A stretch of 23,110 nucleotides of DNA, from positions 1-23,110 of the IMG/VR virus record IMGVR_UViG_3300032516_000207; one strand, 5' to 3'. Positions 1-14,691 of this stretch are shown here, piece by piece; the stretch's first letter is position 1, and every line of letters starts with the position of its first letter. This DNA comes from a virus. The notes beneath the pieces are model-generated. The model worked only from the letters and a program-made list of their open reading frames with translations. It searched no databases and was not told the origin of the DNA. Made by a program: the position numbers and the translations under genes.

Positions 1-123
1 GTTTGTGTTTTGACTGATTGTCAAATCTCTCTAATTAGCTACGAGGGTTGGTCAACTCTTAGTCCTGAAGAGATTCTTACCTTTCAGGTAGGAGACGTTA
101 TTCCCTGGTTCCGTCTCCTATAG
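1..123 (+). CDS. C-terminal 40 codons of an upstream gene (partial)
   Basis: Frame 1 is open from the first base to a TAG at 121-123 and gives 40 residues with balanced protein-like composition, including the segments SYEGWSTLSPEEIL and FQVGDVIPWFRLL. The start lies outside the window. I do not recognise the protein. Its last five codons and stop form the first copy of a 19-bp tandem repeat that continues past the stop. The call rests only on the open frame and composition, so it is moderate. Confidence 0.5.
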   Translation, partial: VCVLTDCQISLISYEGWSTLSPEEILTFQVGDVIPWFRLL

Positions 124-180
124 CCGATTCCGCCTAATGTAGCCGGTTCCGTCTCCTATAGTTAGTATCATCTCCTATAG
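107..180 (+). repeat. Four-copy 19-bp tandem repeat spanning a gene end
   Basis: 17-bp cores lie at 107-123, 126-142, 145-161 and 164-180, exactly 19 bp apart. Cores 1 and 3 are identical (GGTTCCGTCTCCTATAG). Core 2 matches at 12 of 17 positions and core 4 at 13 of 17. Each core ends in TAG. The first core includes the end and stop codon of the partial upstream gene, so the array is an expansion of that gene's 3' end. Confidence 0.75.
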
Positions 181-398: not shown

Positions 399-668
399 AT
401 GGACGAATACCTCGAAGAACTCTATCAACTAAGAAGTTGTCTTAAGTTCTTGTTAAGGAAGGAATATTTAGAAGAACTTGTAGAGTTGGCCCAACAAATA
501 GATCGTTCCTATGTAGATAGTTATCACTCCATCAAGGAACAAAGTGAACACGGAAAGGATTGTGGTTATGCAATAAAGGCTAAAGAACTCTTCTACGCCT
601 TAGGAGAGAAGGACGTAACTAAGAAAATCAAAGACATATATGAAACTTTTATAAAGAATGGTTATTAG
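399..668 (+). CDS. Small charged hypothetical protein, 89 aa
   Basis: I do not recognise this protein. It is rich in Glu, Lys, Leu and Tyr and looks almost wholly helical. Two similar segments, EYLEELYQL near residue 3 and EYLEELVEL near residue 22, suggest an internal helical repeat. The start is supported by AAGGGAG at 387-393, five bases before the ATG. There is no signal peptide or membrane segment. Its C-terminal IYETFIKNGY is the first unit of a five-copy repeat that runs downstream to 837. Small soluble helical proteins like this are common in phage accessory regions, but no function can be inferred. Confidence 0.75.
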   Translation: MDEYLEELYQLRSCLKFLLRKEYLEELVELAQQIDRSYVDSYHSIKEQSEHGKDCGYAIKAKELFYALGEKDVTKKIKDIYETFIKNGY

Positions 669-837
669 GAAGTTCCTCTAATATATGAGGTATTTATTAA
701 GGATAAATGAACCTTGAGGATATATATGAAGTATTCATAAAGGATAAAACTATTTAGAAGAATCTATGAAAACTCTATAAAGGATAAAACTATTTAGAAA
801 AATCTATGAAAACTCCATAAAGGATAAAGAGTTATGA
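636..837 (+). repeat. Five imperfect ~40-bp tandem copies of a gene 3' end
   Basis: Units start at 636, 681, 722, 762 and 802, spaced 45, 41, 40 and 40 bp. Read in the register of the first unit, which is the end of the 399-668 gene, they give IYETFIKNGY, IYEVFIKDK, IYEVFIKDKTI, IYENSIKDKTI and IYENSIKDKEL. Each is followed directly by a stop: TAG 666, TGA 708, TAG 755, TAG 795, TGA 835. Units 2 and 3 differ over nine codons only at three synonymous third positions. Units 4 and 5 differ over the same nine codons by one synonymous base. The last unit supplies AAAGGA at 819-824, and its TGA overlaps the ATG of the next gene. Confidence 0.85.
707..757 (+). pseudogene. 16-codon mini-ORF, apparent gene remnant
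   Basis: The ATG at 707 overlaps the TGA that ends repeat unit 2 (ATGA) and is preceded by AAGGA-like sequence. The frame encodes MNLEDIYEVFIKDKTI and then TAG at 755-757. It has a coupled start and a gene-like tail but almost no body. That fits a collapsed paralogue of the upstream gene, though a translated micropeptide is possible. Confidence 0.3.
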
Positions 838-1064
838 CAGATGTAGACGCAGATGCAGACTTTGCATTATTTGACGGGTTTTCTGTTCCCAATCTTGGAT
901 GGGATGATGATGAGGCTCCCCAGCAAGGATGGAAGAAGGAGAAGAAAGATCCAGAGGCTACCAATCAAGGTAGAGAAACTTGTTGGAAGTGTGGTGGGCG
1001 AACCAAAAAGGTAGACAGTGGTATGTTTACCATATATGATGTGTGTCCGAAATGTAAAATATAA
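834..1064 (+). CDS. Small zinc-ribbon protein, 76 aa
   Basis: The N-terminal half is acidic (Asp-rich, with tandem DVDADADF) and is followed by a Lys/Glu-rich linker. The C-terminal third carries two CxxC knuckles, C50-W-K-C53 and C71-P-K-C74, 17 residues apart. This is a classic zinc-ribbon arrangement, as in small nucleic-acid-binding or transcription-related proteins. The start at 834 has AAAGGA at 819-824 and overlaps the stop of the last upstream repeat unit (ATGA). The final codons, C-P-K-C-K-I-stop, are repeated just downstream at 1069-1089. The binding partner cannot be inferred. Confidence 0.75.
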   Translation: MTDVDADADFALFDGFSVPNLGWDDDEAPQQGWKKEKKDPEATNQGRETCWKCGGRTKKVDSGMFTIYDVCPKCKI

Positions 1065-1089
1065 CATATGTCCCAAGTGTAAGATATGA
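1044..1089 (+). repeat. Duplicated 3' end of the zinc-ribbon gene
   Basis: Codons 1044-1064 (C P K C K I stop) recur at 1069-1089, 25 bp later and out of frame with the gene. The two copies encode the same six residues and a stop. All differences are synonymous: CCG/CCC, AAA/AAG twice, and TAA/TGA. The copy's TGA overlaps an ATG at 1086 (ATGA) that opens a four-codon stub, M-I-V-S-stop. The remaining intergenic stretch to 1171 is AT-rich and contains the leader of the next gene. Confidence 0.7.
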
Positions 1090-2949: not shown

Positions 2950-5649
2950 ATGACGTGGTTTACCAACTTAGTAGGTTTATCAGATGATATTCCTTATTTC
3001 TTCTGGAAGACAGAGGAACTGAAGAAAAAGAGACAAGGAAGAACTGCCTCAATTAAGGGACACGATACGGATAGATGGGGTAGGAACTGGGTAACCAGTG
3101 AATTAAACAGTGATTTTGAACCTGGCAGTAGTTGGAGAAGACACAAGACTCCCTACGAAGTTCGTCAAGAAAAGACCGAAGAACAAAATATAGAATATCT
3201 ATCTGCCTCTACCCAAGTTGGTAGTGCGCTTCACTCTCTGGTTGAGAAGCAAATGCTTCTTAGTGGTAGGGCCAAGGCGGTAGAAGTTCCTGTTTTTGAT
3301 AAGGAAACAGGGAACAGTGGGTTTGTAGACATTATCGGAGCAGAGGGACAACCCATTGATATTAAGACACTTGATCCTACAGGGTGGGGCAAACTCCTAA
3401 GAACAGGTAAAGCGTCTCCTGAACACTGGGCTCAACTACAAGGTTATCTTCAGGCTTTAGATAAAGAGTCTGGAGAACTTATATATATGCCCAGAGATGA
3501 TCCCGAAAATAGGATTGTCATAAATGTTAAGAGGGATAGGATATTTGGAAAATATGGGATTGAACCTGTAGGAGAAGAGGAACAATCATTTCGTCAGAGT
3601 CGTGCCCAAGAAGTATATAGAAATTCAGAAGAGACCCTCCGGCAACGTTATCAGGCAAAATTAGAATGGACCAAAGAACTCGAAGTACAAAGATCCAATA
3701 ACCTTAAAGGACATGATGCGGGTCGATGGGGAAGAGAGTGGGTTACTACTGCTGTAGGTAGTGACTTTTCACCTGGTAGTTCTGTTGTTGGAAACTGGGT
3801 AACCAGTCATGCCGAAAGGTTATTTGGTCAAATAACACAGTCTATAAGAGGCAGGACAAAGACTGGTCGATTTATTGAAGCTATGAATGCAGCCGAGGAG
3901 ACCGTTGTAACAAGAATTGTTTCCCCAATGGATGTTCCTCTTTCAATTCGTGGAGAGACTACTTTATGGGGACCAAAGACCAGGGCCGAAGAAATTATCG
4001 ATACTAAGTTGGGTTCTTTAGTAAGACAGGTTGAAGGAACTGCAGGATCTACTCAAGAAGCAAGGAAGTTTCTTCAAACGGGAAGTGCACAAGAGATTCA
4101 ACATGCAGCTGCTAGACATTTTGAAAAGATGGGTGGGCGTTATCAAGAAACAGAAAAAAGCGCTTTTCATCCCAGGGTTACGATAGAAGAGGGGGCAATA
4201 AATATTGTTCCTGTTATTGAACACGAAAGAGAAGTAATGTGGGCGACTACCCCAGACGCTTTGAGAACAAAGGTTCATGAACTAACAGAATCAGAACAAT
4301 TTTTTCAAGCATTGTTAGGTCGAGAGAAGTCAAACTTATATTCAATGTCCGATCCCAGAGGAAAGCAAGAAATACTTAGAGATAAGTTTGGATCTGGCAG
4401 TATTATAAAAAGTTTGTTTTCATCATCAACAATTGATGCAATCCAATATGGAATCAAGGAACGTTCGTTTACAAGAGGATATGCATATATTAAAGGTATT
4501 GCTTTTAGAAACAGATTGGGGTCTGCACTCGATAAGGTTGGAGGTGCAAGAACGGGTAGTCACATGAGTGAAGCTCCCCTATATACAGAAAGTCTTATAG
4601 CAATAAAGACAGATACTCTTCATGAATTGGGAATGTTTAGACGAGCAGAAAAAACCAGAGCTTTAATGGTACATCAGGGACATCCCGAGGAACTTACTCA
4701 TTATCTTAATCGTACTCCTCAAATTTTTGAAGAAACCAAAGGATGGTCGTCTGTTTTTGACGGAACCAGTATCAAGGGACATGATGCCAATAGATGGGGA
4801 AGAGATTGGGTAACCAAGGCTGTAGATAGTGACTTTAAGCCTGGACTCTCATATTTGTGTCCTGTTGGCAAGACGTTTGTTGGTTTACTTGGAACTAAGT
4901 TCGAAAATATTATAAAGTCTCCCGTATTCCAGAAAGCTTTAGAAACAGGAAGGCCATTAGAGAAACTTGGTGAGGGTGGTTTTGGTGAAGTATGGAAGAT
5001 GGAAACTACCTTTGGTGGAGAAAAATTTAATTATATAAAGAAGATTCAGAAGGGAAACGTACTTAATCGTCTAGATGAAACTGAAATAGGCGGTATGCTT
5101 TATGAACATAAGGTGATGGAGGATATACGACTTGCCGAAGGTGGAAGAGCAAGAGATATTCCTCATTCATATGGGGCAAATAAAGAAGGAACAGTTCTTT
5201 ATCAAGAATATCTTCATGGAAAGGTTGCCGGAGTTGAGACAACAGAAAAACAAGGACTGGGTTTTCTTGGTATAATTAAAAGATTGGCAAAAAAGGGTTT
5301 TTCACATAACGATATAAGTCCAACTAATTTGTTTATTCTCGAAACTGGACAACCTATGTTTGTTGATGTTGGATTGGCAAGTCGACTCGTGGAAAAGGGA
5401 AAAGAACAATTTGTTACAGATGTTTTGTCTGATGTTGAGAGTTTAAATTCGGTTGTTCAGAGTTCTATGAAATTTCAGGCATTTCAGACTGGTAAGTTTA
5501 ATACCAGGATAAGTGCAATTGAATCCAGATCTCAAGAAATTATAACCAAAGCAATTAGTGAAGATGCCAGACAGATCCAACAAATGAGTCATGATGCAGT
5601 TTGTGTTCAGAATCTTCGTGATATGAACCCTAAACGTATAAAGAGATAG
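2950..5649 (+). CDS. Modular fusion: RecB-like nuclease, unknown region, protein kinase, 899 aa
   Basis: In order: a short N-terminus; repeat R1 (residues 34-61); a PD-(D/E)XK nuclease of RecB/Cas4 type (~63-200) with G91xxxH95xxxE99, D127, the P135-I-D137-I-K139 core and Q162xxxY166; repeat R2 (251-278); an unrecognised region (~280-606); repeat R3 (607-634); and a protein-kinase-like domain (~665-870). The kinase has a G-loop GEGGFGEV (674-681), a likely ATP Lys at 697 or 698, the catalytic loop H786-N-D788-ISPT-N793, and D806-V-G808. All key residues are present, so both enzymes may be active. HND and DVG in place of HRD and DFG are closer to RIO/ABC1/phosphotransferase-like kinases. It lies between the candidate TerS and TerL, with a weak AAGG site upstream. 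A virion-packaged effector polyprotein is my inference. Confidence 0.85.
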   Translation: MTWFTNLVGLSDDIPYFFWKTEELKKKRQGRTASIKGHDTDRWGRNWVTSELNSDFEPGSSWRRHKTPYEVRQEKTEEQNIEYLSASTQVGSALHSLVEKQMLLSGRAKAVEVPVFDKETGNSGFVDIIGAEGQPIDIKTLDPTGWGKLLRTGKASPEHWAQLQGYLQALDKESGELIYMPRDDPENRIVINVKRDRIFGKYGIEPVGEEEQSFRQSRAQEVYRNSEETLRQRYQAKLEWTKELEVQRSNNLKGHDAGRWGREWVTTAVGSDFSPGSSVVGNWVTSHAERLFGQITQSIRGRTKTGRFIEAMNAAEETVVTRIVSPMDVPLSIRGETTLWGPKTRAEEIIDTKLGSLVRQVEGTAGSTQEARKFLQTGSAQEIQHAAARHFEKMGGRYQETEKSAFHPRVTIEEGAINIVPVIEHEREVMWATTPDALRTKVHELTESEQFFQALLGREKSNLYSMSDPRGKQEILRDKFGSGSIIKSLFSSSTIDAIQYGIKERSFTRGYAYIKGIAFRNRLGSALDKVGGARTGSHMSEAPLYTESLIAIKTDTLHELGMFRRAEKTRALMVHQGHPEELTHYLNRTPQIFEETKGWSSVFDGTSIKGHDANRWGRDWVTKAVDSDFKPGLSYLCPVGKTFVGLLGTKFENIIKSPVFQKALETGRPLEKLGEGGFGEVWKMETTFGGEKFNYIKKIQKGNVLNRLDETEIGGMLYEHKVMEDIRLAEGGRARDIPHSYGANKEGTVLYQEYLHGKVAGVETTEKQGLGFLGIIKRLAKKGFSHNDISPTNLFILETGQPMFVDVGLASRLVEKGKEQFVTDVLSDVESLNSVVQSSMKFQAFQTGKFNTRISAIESRSQEIITKAISEDARQIQQMSHDAVCVQNLRDMNPKRIKR
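3049..3132 (+). repeat. Repeat R1 of the 28-residue GHD-RWGR motif
   Basis: Encodes residues 34-61 of the fusion protein, just before the nuclease domain. It follows the pattern KGHDxxRWGRxWVT then SDFxPG. Seventeen of 28 residues are identical across R1, R2 and R3. The DNA copies are clearly diverged, so they are old or under protein-level selection. Confidence 0.9.
3700..3807 (+). repeat. Repeat R2 plus a partial fourth copy
   Basis: R2 encodes residues 251-278, after the nuclease domain. Eleven bases later, 3793-3807 (AACTGGGTAACCAGT, residues NWVTS) is identical to 3085-3099 inside R1. A fragment of another copy therefore sits directly behind R2. Confidence 0.85.
4768..4851 (+). repeat. 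Repeat R3 of the 28-residue GHD-RWGR motif
   Basis: Encodes residues 607-634, about 40 residues before the kinase glycine loop. It is the third full copy and closest to R2 in the AVxSDF part. Its position again marks a domain boundary. Confidence 0.9.
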
Positions 5650-9744: not shown

Positions 9745-11408
9745 TGACTACACTTGACCAACTTAGCTTTGACATTAGTGGTTCTCTTTCTAATCCTTAT
9801 GTCTATTCGGATATAGATGTAATAATTTCTCGTTATGAAGATCCCACTGTTCCTTCTCTATCTACTCGCCAGGATGCTCTTGGGCGCGAAGTTGAGGGTC
9901 AAAAGAACGATGAAACAAGTATGTCGGACAAATATATTTTAATAGATGATAGTGTTGGGCGAGCCATTGATGGATCGAGTACTTTGACTGGAGTTATAAG
10001 TCAGATTAATGGTGCCGGGGCAGATGTAGCCGCAGCCTATGACAATTATGATAAAAAGCAGGGAGAGGCTCTTGCATGGGTAAGAAATCTTTATAATTAT
10101 GGTTCTGCCGATCATCCAGAAACAACTAACATTGATCTTGGTTTTGGGGGAGAAAAAGGAACATTAAGAGGTGTAAGTATCCAGAATACAGTAAATACGA
10201 TTTATGATGCCAAAGATGCAAGAGATGTAGCAAAGGCTATTTTGGCAGATTGTATTCCCTGTAAGGATAGAATCATGGCTCTTCTTGCTCTTAATCCGCT
10301 AAAGGATCTAATGGGTATTTTGGATGTTTGGTATACGGGAGCAATCAAGGGACTCATTGAGGGTTTTGATTTATTTTTTGGTGATAAATCTAACGAGGTA
10401 TTTGCTGATATTTGTGAGTTACTAAAGTTCTTAAACTTTATGTGTTTGCCAGACCTATTTGGTCTTGTTTTTATGATTCAGTCATTAATACAAGAATATA
10501 CGTGGGAATGGAAGGATATACGAATTACATTCTTCTCATTGTTAGGTAAGATGATGACTCCTACCCTAACGCCACTAATTGGATTAATTGATAGATATAT
10601 TCAACTTGCAATAATGCCCATTGAATGTGTTTTGGATGCACTTGATGCCCAGATTCAAAAATTAGACTTAGTTCAACTCGTTGATGTTGTTAAGAATGGT
10701 AAGACTAAACGTCAACCTACTCCCAATATTATGAAGAACCTCAAGAGTGGTCTCGTGAGATTTAGGGATACTGTTTCAAAAGCCCTAAAGGTTGCAGACG
10801 AGAAAACGAAATTTCTTCATAAAAGTCTACTTGAAATTTTAAATCTTGAGGATGAAACAAACGATCATTTGTTTGACCTATCTCAACACATTCAGCAAGC
10901 AACTAAGTTTATTATGTTAATTCAAGCGGTTATTAGATTCCTGCAACGTGGTTTTATTGTTTGTGGTCCAGAAGCAACAACGGATGACAGTGTTGCTTTC
11001 TTTAATCAATTGGGTCAGGGACTTGGACAGGGTTTTGATGACAGAGATTTTGTTGTCAGAAGTGATGATGGAATAACTGGTCCTCCAGGTTCAGGTCCTT
11101 CAGGTTCGGGTCAAACGAGTTCAGGTTCTACGAATACTGGTGGAGGAGGTTTGGGCAGTAGTCCAAGTGCGAATACTGTAGTAGAGGTTAAAACAAAGAT
11201 CTCTCCCGAACTTGCCAGTCTCTATAAAAGTCTTACTAACTATCTTCAGGCCACTGTTCCTCAGGCAACTGGTATGCCTCAGACAACCGTAAATCAGAAA
11301 TTGCAAGGAACAGTAGTTATTCCTCTTCGTAATTGTTTATATTCGGTGAGAGATAAAGAACTCGACAACGTAAAGGATTTCCTTGGTTCTTTTGAAAAGG
11401 AAATCTAA
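9744..11408 (+). CDS. Large hypothetical virion-type protein, 554 aa
   Basis: I do not recognise the family. Residues 1-150 are polar with short beta-like segments. Residues ~165-410 are strongly hydrophobic and helical, with DCIPCKDR and several amphipathic helices (LNFMCLPDLFGLVFMIQSLI, PLIGLIDRYIQLAIMPIE). A Gly/Ser/Thr/Pro linker of about 35 residues follows (PPGSGPSGSG ... GGGGLGSSPS), then a ~75-residue helical C-terminal domain. It is coupled by TAATG to the gene before it. Position between TerL and portal, size and linker suggest a structural or internal head protein. Membrane contact is possible given the hydrophobic core. Confidence 0.75.
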   Translation: MTTLDQLSFDISGSLSNPYVYSDIDVIISRYEDPTVPSLSTRQDALGREVEGQKNDETSMSDKYILIDDSVGRAIDGSSTLTGVISQINGAGADVAAAYDNYDKKQGEALAWVRNLYNYGSADHPETTNIDLGFGGEKGTLRGVSIQNTVNTIYDAKDARDVAKAILADCIPCKDRIMALLALNPLKDLMGILDVWYTGAIKGLIEGFDLFFGDKSNEVFADICELLKFLNFMCLPDLFGLVFMIQSLIQEYTWEWKDIRITFFSLLGKMMTPTLTPLIGLIDRYIQLAIMPIECVLDALDAQIQKLDLVQLVDVVKNGKTKRQPTPNIMKNLKSGLVRFRDTVSKALKVADEKTKFLHKSLLEILNLEDETNDHLFDLSQHIQQATKFIMLIQAVIRFLQRGFIVCGPEATTDDSVAFFNQLGQGLGQGFDDRDFVVRSDDGITGPPGSGPSGSGQTSSGSTNTGGGGLGSSPSANTVVEVKTKISPELASLYKSLTNYLQATVPQATGMPQTTVNQKLQGTVVIPLRNCLYSVRDKELDNVKDFLGSFEKEI

Positions 11409-11421
11409 GGAGTTGGATTTT

Positions 11422-14400
11422 ATGAACATACTGGAACGAGCAAAGAATTGGTTCAAAAAAGAACCGACTCCTATTGTTGATAAGATTGTTGAACTACCTA
11501 ATCGTTTGCAAGATGCTGAATCCGATACTGCTGTAAAAATTTCGAAGATAACAAGAGTTATCAATCCGGTTCTTTCTTATAAGAATCGTCGAGGTCTTGG
11601 AGACTTTGAAGAAGCGGAATATGATATGGCCGAGATTGGTCGTATTGAAGATGTAGAATCTATGGTCCAGCGAGCCTTTTCACTAAAAGAGGGTCTCTTT
11701 TTTAAAGAGGGTTATGAGTTAATTGGCAAAAATGCTTCAGTAATTCAGTATATTAAAGCAAGATTCGCTCAGTTTTCGCAGGCGGCAAATATTCCTTTTG
11801 ATCTAACTCTACATGGTATAGGAGAGGATTTAGTTCGCTTTCACAATAGTATCCTGGTTAAAGTTAGAAATGCAAAAGCATCGGGTGGCAAACTTCGTAT
11901 TCCTGCTGGCAAGAAGAGAGAAATTCAACCTGTCGCGGCATATTTCGGTGTTCCGTTTCCAACTGTAAAGTTTTGTCGAGATGATAACGGAACTATTCTT
12001 TCTTATCGTCAACAGTTGCCAAATGGTAAATATAAGGATTTTGCTCCAGACGATGTGATCCATTTTTATTTTAGACGTAAGAAGGGTTTCTTGGTTGGGA
12101 CTCCCGTTCTTGTTTCGGTTAAGGATGATATTCGCGCTCTTCGTAGAATTGAAGAAAATATTGAAATGCTCATTTATCAATGTTTGTTTCCACTTTTTCA
12201 GTATAGTGTTGGAACGGTTGAAAAACCTTGTAAAGAATACTCTGATGGAACTACTGAAGTTGATGTTGTAAAGGCGAATATTGAGATTATGCCAAGTGAG
12301 GGTATGATTGTTACGCCCGAGCGACACGAAATAAAAGCAGTGGGTGCAGAGGGTCGCGCACTTAGAGCCGAAGGTTATGTTAATCACTTTAAGGAAAGAA
12401 TTATTGGTGGACTTGGTATTTCTGCAATTGATCTTGGACAGGGTAATACAGCGAATAGATCGTGTTATTCAGAAGATACAGAAACCCTTACAGACAATGG
12501 TTGGAAATTCTACTGGCAAATTACCCCAGAAGACAAGATAGGAACTTATAATCCTCAGACCAATAGGATAGAATTTTATAGTCCAAACGGGGATATATTA
12601 CTTCATGATTATAGTGGTCCAATGTATCACTTTAAGAATCGTAATGTTGATGTATTGGTAACCCCCGATCATGATATGTGGATGGGACGACCATTATGGA
12701 AGGATAGAACTAAGTGGGAAAAGATACATGCCGATCAAATAGATATACAAGGATTTAAATTTTTATCTGGTGGTCTTAATTGGCTTGGTATTGAACCAGA
12801 GGACTTCTTGTTACCATATGTACCTTATAAGTGTTATTCGGAGGTTCCAAACAGAGGACCTTTTAATAGAATAAATATAAGTACTTGGTTGGAATTTCTT
12901 GGATATTATGTTTCAGAGGGTTGTTTGGCGAAAGGTAAAGGAAAATGGGCAGTAACTCTTTCTCAAAATAGTCTTGTTAATTTTGACAAAACTGAGAAGA
13001 TTCGTCAATGTTTACAAAAGCTTCCATTCAAATTCCTTGAGTATACCAATCCATCTGATCATACAACTCGTTTTTGGATACACTGTAAGTCTCTCTATTT
13101 GTATTTAGAAGAAAACTGTGGCGATTATAGTTATTTAAAACACTTTCCAAGTGAAGTTCTACAGTTTAATACAAAATATCTTCGTATTGCTTTTGAAGCC
13201 GCAATGACTGGAGATGGAACAAGTGATAGTCGTGAAGACAGAACAAGTCGAACCTATTACTCGACCAGTGATCAACTCCTTGATCAAATACAAGAAATTG
13301 CGTTGAAATTAGGTTATCGCGCACATATTCTTCTAGGTAGTGGTTGTAAGCGTGTATGTATAAGTGAAAGTTCAGTTAGTAATATTCGCGAGGACCAGGT
13401 TTCTATCGAAGATTATTCTGGAAAAGTTTATTGTTTTAATGTACCAAATCATCTTTTTATCACACGTCGCGAAGGACGAGTAGGTATTCATGGTAATACG
13501 GCGGATTCTATGTCTCGTAACTTAGTGGATGATGTAAAGTACTATCAACGAGTTTTAGAAATCTTTGTTAATGATTACATTATTAAAGAATTACTTTTGG
13601 AATCTACGTTTGAGAATCCACTCGATGAAGAAAATATTGTTAGACTTGAGTTTCGAGAAGTAGATCTGGATGCAAAGATTAAAGTTGAAAACCATGCTAT
13701 TCAGGCTTTTGCCTCGCACGTACTCACACAAGCAGAACTTAGAAAGGCTTTTGGAAAAGAACCCTTGACGGATGAGGAATGGGAAGATACTTATTGGAAA
13801 CTAATTATGGAACCAGAGAATCTTATTAGGGCGGTGGACGAACCCTATCTGGTTGCTCAGGGTGCCATAGACAATCCAAATACTTCTCTTACTCCCGAAC
13901 AGTCAACCGAAGCACAAGGTAAAGCCGAACAACAAGCAGAGAAGGAAAATGACTTAGAAATCAAAAAGATAAAAGCTAAACCTAAACTTAGTTCTGGACA
14001 ACGTCAGGCGGCAAGTAGAAGTAGACCAAGCAATCAACATGGACGCGCTCTTGGTCCCACTAAGAGAAAAAGCAATTTTGAACCAGGGTTTACTTTTGAC
14101 GAGATAAATCCTATATTAGAAACTTATGACAATCTATTTCAAAATGCAATGTACTCTCTTACAAAAGGAACTTTTACTCATGAATGGATTCGCCATATTG
14201 CCACAACGGCGCGCCAGCAAATGACAGACAATATGACCAGACTTGTTCGTTTAGATTTCAGGAAAGGTTTGAAAAGAGCTAATTATGAAGCTGGACAATC
14301 TGAAATTGACGTTCCTATCCATTTTTTAGAAAATAGGATTTCTTCAAGCATTGCCAGACTCATGGATTCCATTCTAAAACAATTAGATAATACCAAAACA

Positions 14401-14691
14401 AGAGAGATAGTTCCAAGTGAATTAGAAATGTATGTATCGTCTGTATTTGATAGTTTACGTTTTAGAAGTACTTCAATTTACATATCAGAGCGTGTAAAGG
14501 CTTATAATTACGGTGTTTTGATTGGACTTCAAAAACGTGGTATTGGGAAAGCAAAAGTTATTAACAATGAAACGGGTTGTGAAGAGTGCCAAAGACACAA
14601 CGAGTCAATTCCATTGTTAAATGCGACAATTAACGATATCCCGGGATTTCATCCAAATTGTAAGTGTGTGATAGAAGAGGATAAGTTATAA
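11422..14691 (+). CDS. Portal protein with internal intein and C-terminal Mu-F-like domain
   Basis: The precursor is 1089 aa. Removing the intein (348-692) leaves 744 aa. The N-terminal extein (1-347) and the segment after the intein form the portal, the dodecameric DNA channel at the head vertex; the sequence around the insertion, GQGNTANRS/TADSMSRNL, is a portal signature region. The C-terminus (~900-1089) resembles the Mu gpF/SPP1 gp7 minor head family, ending in C1053xxC1056 and H1077-P-N-C1080-K-C1082. The start ATG 11422 is preferred over an in-frame TTG at 11383 because AAGGAG lies at 11407-11412. Portal and Mu-F are usually separate adjacent genes, so the fusion is notable. Confidence 0.88.
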   Translation: MNILERAKNWFKKEPTPIVDKIVELPNRLQDAESDTAVKISKITRVINPVLSYKNRRGLGDFEEAEYDMAEIGRIEDVESMVQRAFSLKEGLFFKEGYELIGKNASVIQYIKARFAQFSQAANIPFDLTLHGIGEDLVRFHNSILVKVRNAKASGGKLRIPAGKKREIQPVAAYFGVPFPTVKFCRDDNGTILSYRQQLPNGKYKDFAPDDVIHFYFRRKKGFLVGTPVLVSVKDDIRALRRIEENIEMLIYQCLFPLFQYSVGTVEKPCKEYSDGTTEVDVVKANIEIMPSEGMIVTPERHEIKAVGAEGRALRAEGYVNHFKERIIGGLGISAIDLGQGNTANRSCYSEDTETLTDNGWKFYWQITPEDKIGTYNPQTNRIEFYSPNGDILLHDYSGPMYHFKNRNVDVLVTPDHDMWMGRPLWKDRTKWEKIHADQIDIQGFKFLSGGLNWLGIEPEDFLLPYVPYKCYSEVPNRGPFNRINISTWLEFLGYYVSEGCLAKGKGKWAVTLSQNSLVNFDKTEKIRQCLQKLPFKFLEYTNPSDHTTRFWIHCKSLYLYLEENCGDYSYLKHFPSEVLQFNTKYLRIAFEAAMTGDGTSDSREDRTSRTYYSTSDQLLDQIQEIALKLGYRAHILLGSGCKRVCISESSVSNIREDQVSIEDYSGKVYCFNVPNHLFITRREGRVGIHGNTADSMSRNLVDDVKYYQRVLEIFVNDYIIKELLLESTFENPLDEENIVRLEFREVDLDAKIKVENHAIQAFASHVLTQAELRKAFGKEPLTDEEWEDTYWKLIMEPENLIRAVDEPYLVAQGAIDNPNTSLTPEQSTEAQGKAEQQAEKENDLEIKKIKAKPKLSSGQRQAASRSRPSNQHGRALGPTKRKSNFEPGFTFDEINPILETYDNLFQNAMYSLTKGTFTHEWIRHIATTARQQMTDNMTRLVRLDFRKGLKRANYEAGQSEIDVPIHFLENRISSSIARLMDSILKQLDNTKTREIVPSELEMYVSSVFDSLRFRSTSIYISERVKAYNYGVLIGLQKRGIGKAKVINNETGCEECQRHNESIPLLNATINDIPGFHPNCKCVIEEDKL
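12463..13497 (+). mobile_element. In-frame intein with LAGLIDADG-type endonuclease, 345 aa
   Basis: It is a self-splicing element in the portal gene. It begins at C348 (CYSEDTETLT, splicing block A) and has VLVTPDHDMW (block B, TPDH). Two degenerate LAGLIDADG helices follow: FLGYYVSEGC with E499 and FEAAMTGDGT with D598. It ends with the block F/G region VYCFNVPNHLFITRR...IHGN692 before T693. Catalytic first Cys, last Asn and +1 Thr are present. The penultimate residue is Gly (H-G-N) instead of the usual His. Removing it joins S347 to T693 in a smooth portal sequence. The size fits a full intein with homing endonuclease. Confidence 0.9.

Follow-up and report, generated by a model that had tools for sequence, protein, structure and literature searches.

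Behind an 89-residue gene (positions 399–668) of the phage studied here, the last codons of that gene are found four more times, head to tail and each with its own stop codon. These units are probably repeats of the 3′ end of the gene itself, generated by recurrent short head-to-tail duplications that were tolerated past the stop. The window, that is the whole stretch of DNA analyzed, is a complete IMG/VR virus record of 23110 bases; it encodes a large terminase (PHROG 2), a portal protein (PHROG 9232), and a capsid protein (Pfam Phage_capsid_4) and is therefore that of a tailed phage. The array sits in the spacer at 669–833, and its surroundings are arranged as follows:

109–180, plus strand: tail (..VIPWFRLL, stop) of the gene that ends at 123 and three 19-nt copies reading FRLM, FRLL, and YHLL, each closed by TAG.
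399–668, plus strand: open reading frame of the 89-residue gene with the repeated 3′ end, ending KKIKDIYETFIKNGY before the stop; homologues in contigs L002 and L008; its tail is unit 1 (636–668).
636–662, plus strand: unit 1, the present coding tail, IYETFIKNG.
681–710, plus strand: unit 2, IYEVFIKDK and stop, in frame with gene 399–668 past the single TAG at 666–668.
722–757, plus strand: unit 3, IYEVFIKDKTI and stop, with an ATG at 707 ahead of it in its own frame (MNLEDIYEVFIKDKTI, stop).
762–797, plus strand: unit 4, IYENSIKDKTI and stop, its own frame having no start codon.
802–837, plus strand: unit 5, IYENSIKDKEL and stop, with a Shine-Dalgarno-like AAGGA at 820–824 and an ATGA overlap with the next gene.
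834–1064, plus strand: open reading frame of a 76-residue gene with CxxC pairs, ending DVCPKCKI before the stop.
1038–1089, plus strand: tail of gene 834–1064 and a second copy (DVCPKCKI and stop, 1038–1064; NICPKCKI and stop, 1063–1089), period 25, out of frame.

The units start at 636, 681, 722, 762, and 802, following one another at a roughly constant step (45, 41, 40, and 40 nt, with periods of 19 and 25 at the neighboring genes), and their stops are TAG at 666–668, TGA at 708–710, TAG at 755–757, TAG at 795–797, and TGA at 835–837. Part of the array scores 172 in Tandem Repeats Finder (TRF). The original prediction, made from the letters alone, had described five coding-like units of about 40 bp at 636–837, each reading IYE..IKDK-like and ending in a stop, and this description holds; it had also placed them in one register, which is incorrect, as units 1 to 5 are offset from the gene frame by 0, 0, 2, 0, and 1 nt and all three frames are represented. 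The ATGA following a ribosome-binding-like AAGGA, which it had read in two units as traces of gene starts, is present in units 2 and 5. In unit 5 it is the start of gene 834–1064 (TTATGA, with the AAGGA lying 9 nt before ATG 834); in unit 2 the AAGGA is just 3 nt from ATG 707. Unit 5 probably serves now as the ribosome-binding region of gene 834–1064. Unit 2 lies in the gene frame behind a lone TAG (NGY, stop, EVPLIYEVFIKDK, stop), and therefore unit 2 may formerly have been the end of gene 399–668, before the TAG at 666 appeared. Two other readings of the array were set aside: separate translation of each unit, since only unit 3 has an in-frame start codon, and recoding of TAG, which would link two units at the first TAG alone, since TAG is also the stop of several further genes in the window.

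Close relatives were sought with the 89-residue gene, gene 834, gene 2086, and the terminase among viral contigs, phages, and genomes, and the searches returned only L002, L008, and distant terminases. L002 is an IMG/VR contig whose terminase is 52% identical to that of the window, and L008 is a contig binned in an archaeal metagenome-assembled genome (MAG) from Guaymas Basin. Positions 1–8110 of L008, filed in a Thermoplasmata MAG, carry phage genes homologous to the window together with a tRNA-Ser, and the contig is probably a mis-binned phage contig or a virus of that community. Over the 89-residue gene, L002 and L008 are 60% and 63% identical to the window, a distance too great to resolve single events. 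In both, the tail of the homologue is present once (IYKTFIEEK and stop in L002, IYHTFIEKK and stop in L008), with a length and a final Lys before the stop that agree with unit 2, and the next gene begins 12–14 nt past the stop; neither the IYE array nor gene 834–1064 was found at the corresponding place in L002 or L008. The AlphaFold model of the 89-residue protein is all helix, at low confidence (mean pLDDT 52). The spacer directly upstream of this gene contains CTTTATAGT in all three genomes (window, 284–294 and 304–314; L002, about 691–701; L008, about 4972–4982), the window form being CTTTATAGTAG and then, 20 nt further on, GTTTATAGTAG; this motif is a candidate phage promoter.

Repetition of gene tails extends to both neighbors of the array in the window, as listed above, and to the gene upstream of the 89-residue gene in each relative, where the tail and stop are repeated as DVKI/DVRI with a period of 19 in L002 and as DIMT/NIMT with a period of 17 in L008. 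The upstream genes of the three genomes are presumed homologues, judging by where they lie and by the [VI][IFY]PW that each has close to its end. Their tail repeats are unrelated in sequence across the window, L002, and L008, so the duplications probably arose independently in the three genomes. Besides the stop-spanning copies, the upstream gene also has short in-frame C-terminal repeats in L002 (401–468, IDVNLNS) and in L008 (4709–4740, DVDVDMDVN).

In the window, a copy of the tail of the preceding gene is present in each of the three spacers that exceed 100 nt (shuffle P 0.001, 0.034, and 0.008). The same holds for the upstream-gene spacer in L002 (P 0.04) and in L008 (P 0.002). Counting as a tail copy any alignment scoring 20 or more, one is present in 5 of the lineage's 10 spacers with a length of 40 nt or more vs 1 of 62 in a small control set of 250 kb made up of Moorella, Acinetobacter, and Bacillus phages and T4 (Fisher P 0.0001). 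The stricter measure of stop-aligned tandem tails gives 4 of 41 gene ends vs 1 of 227 (Fisher P 0.002); the sole control case is in T4, and such events therefore occur elsewhere too. TRF arrays likewise number 1.3–2.5 per 10 kb in the lineage vs 0–0.8 in the controls. In the window and its relatives, arrays within genes (TRF score of at least 50) have periods of 15, 18, or 21, whereas those spanning gene ends have periods of 17, 19, 25, and 40/41, none of them divisible by three, a contrast that fits duplication filtered by the reading frame.

Several other features of these genomes deserve mention. An exact in-frame 18-nt tandem duplication (AVTQTSAVTQTS) lies at 1199–1235 of the window, near the start of gene 1172–2056. 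A large protein encoded at 2950–5649, with a weak kinase-like match, contains three segments like KGHDxxRWGRxWVTxxxxSDFxPGSS, and one encoded at 3336–6494 of L002 contains four like KGHDxGHxGR..SGDFxPGxSW; two small Gly-rich genes of L002 end in a shorter SNKPVNPIRGL-like sequence. Together, these segments and gene ends look like a spreading repeat or domain. The portal gene (11383–14691) has its portal matches before an insert, with LAGLIDADG_3 at residues 609–649, and appears to carry an intein; further matches to thymidylate synthase and ribonucleotide reductase families probably reflect inteins.

The differences between the copies bear a protein-level signature. Of 27 nucleotides, 3 differ between units 2 and 3 and 1 between units 4 and 5; every one of these changes falls at a third codon position and is synonymous, exactly as had been noticed at the outset. 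Units 1 and 2 and units 3 and 4 also carry non-synonymous changes (three and two codons, respectively). A count of changed codons in the aligned units gives, over the four neighboring pairs, 7 synonymous vs 5 non-synonymous changed codons, where about 2.3 synonymous are expected at random (P ~0.006), and the other two frames of the array have no such excess. The two CPKCKI copies at the end of gene 834–1064 differ from each other only synonymously. When all neighboring copies are pooled, 14 of 26 changed codons are synonymous against about 5 at random (P 0.0004; P <0.001 in a second simulation), all these P values being nominal, as tail boundaries were set by eye, numbers are small, and copies from the same genome are not independent.

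The excess is also larger than copies free of constraint behind the first stop would predict. Were the upstream copy the only coding member of each pair, about 7 synonymous codons would be expected instead of 14 (nominal P 0.009, all copies), or 4.5 instead of 11 with stricter boundaries (nominal P 0.0015), and the IYE array alone gives a nominal P of 0.027 under this model; one in which both copies are coding, with omega ~0.2, fits 14 of 26. Since slippage with only the upstream copy coding falls short of this excess, unit 2, and perhaps others, would have evolved as coding sequence, and we regard this as moderate evidence that some downstream copies were formerly coding tails. The signature of unit 2 would stem from its in-frame position; for the other copies, the simplest account is an out-of-register joining of alleles from co-infecting phages.

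Taken further, this account becomes the strongest alternative, in which different phages carried divergent tails of the same gene and co-infection brought these together in tandem, through template switching or out-of-register recombination. It would also explain the coding history of the downstream copies and agrees with the good fit of the both-copies-coding model and the poor fit of the upstream-only one, and the absence in both relatives of gene 834–1064, beside the array, marks the site as a past junction of gene content. On the other hand, the equal repeated steps (40, 40; 19, 19, 19) resemble duplication inside a single molecule, there is almost no difference between units 4 and 5, and the scans returned no donor phage. 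We consider this alternative possible but rather unlikely; it is a variant of the duplication explanation, and its confidence overlaps with that given to the latter. Its general form, in which gene ends act as joints that stack the coding tails of co-infecting phages out of register, the newest tail coding and the older ones fossils, is more doubtful still; if it were true, the spacer would preserve earlier alleles of the final codons of the gene.

A functional element, whether an array of RNA or DNA sites, terminators, or short peptides translated from the spacer, is an improbable explanation of the array, even with the likely ribosome-binding site of gene 834 in unit 5 and the ATG of unit 3 overlapping the stop of unit 2 in its favor. 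The fold of 636–860 is no more stable than shuffled sequences (z 0.29), the array has no terminator and no more sigma-70 promoter matches than chance, units 4 and 5 have no start codon, the array is missing in both relatives, and the upstream-gene repeats are unrelated across the three genomes. A role of the array beyond the ribosome-binding site of unit 5 is unlikely. Least probable is the explanation first put forward, that the units are remnants of lost paralogous genes: the part of it that recognized gene tails with a protein-level signature stands, as the tails do read as protein and differ synonymously, but whole paralogues are unsupported, because L002, L008, and every scan gave no intact tandem paralogue (one gene with one tail in each relative, which agrees in part with an outcome, differing copy number and no coding homologues, that had itself been named as evidence against the idea), four gene bodies would have to be removed to nearly the same base, the units, just 40 nt apart, have no remnant of a gene body between them, and the tails of two unrelated neighboring genes are repeated likewise.

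Under the duplication explanation, which we prefer, successive short duplications in steps of 40–45 nt would have copied the 3′ end of gene 399–668 behind the gene, by a mechanism that we infer to be slippage, template switching, or out-of-register recombination. The copies would have been retained since they lie behind a stop codon, where neither frame nor protein suffers; unit 2 was probably the coding end before the TAG at 666, and some of the others may be coding alleles that had diverged in separate phages when they were joined. The same process would have hit both neighboring gene ends in the window and, independently, the end of the upstream gene in the two relatives, and tail duplication would have supplied a large part of the few long spacers that these compact genomes have. 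Gene ends would then appear as sites where a phage genome can gain length through short duplications at no cost. How spacers arise can be read from the copies behind the stop, which, if some of them are old alleles, also hold a record of recombination between phages. For annotation, they are a warning that coding-looking peptides with stops behind a gene are not necessarily genes or paralogues.

A limited search of the open-access literature gave no direct description of recurrent stop-spanning tail duplications in phages, but two known systems are comparable. E. coli mutators with topA R168C produce short tandem duplications (2–19 bp) de novo, at a high rate and independently of existing repeats (PMC6954433). 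They are likewise head to tail, need no prior repeats, and are of the same order of length as the 17–45 nt seen here, but the phage copies are old, diverged, and stop-spanning and recur at neighboring gene ends. The spacers of animal mitochondrial genomes, for example in Hycleus, have been ascribed to slipped-strand events or to tandem duplication and random loss (PMC5585954). There too, the genomes are compact and their extra spacers are attributed to slippage or duplication of adjacent sequence; the mitochondrial cases involve tRNA regions and short motifs, whereas those of the phage involve protein-coding tails with their stops and a synonymous signature.
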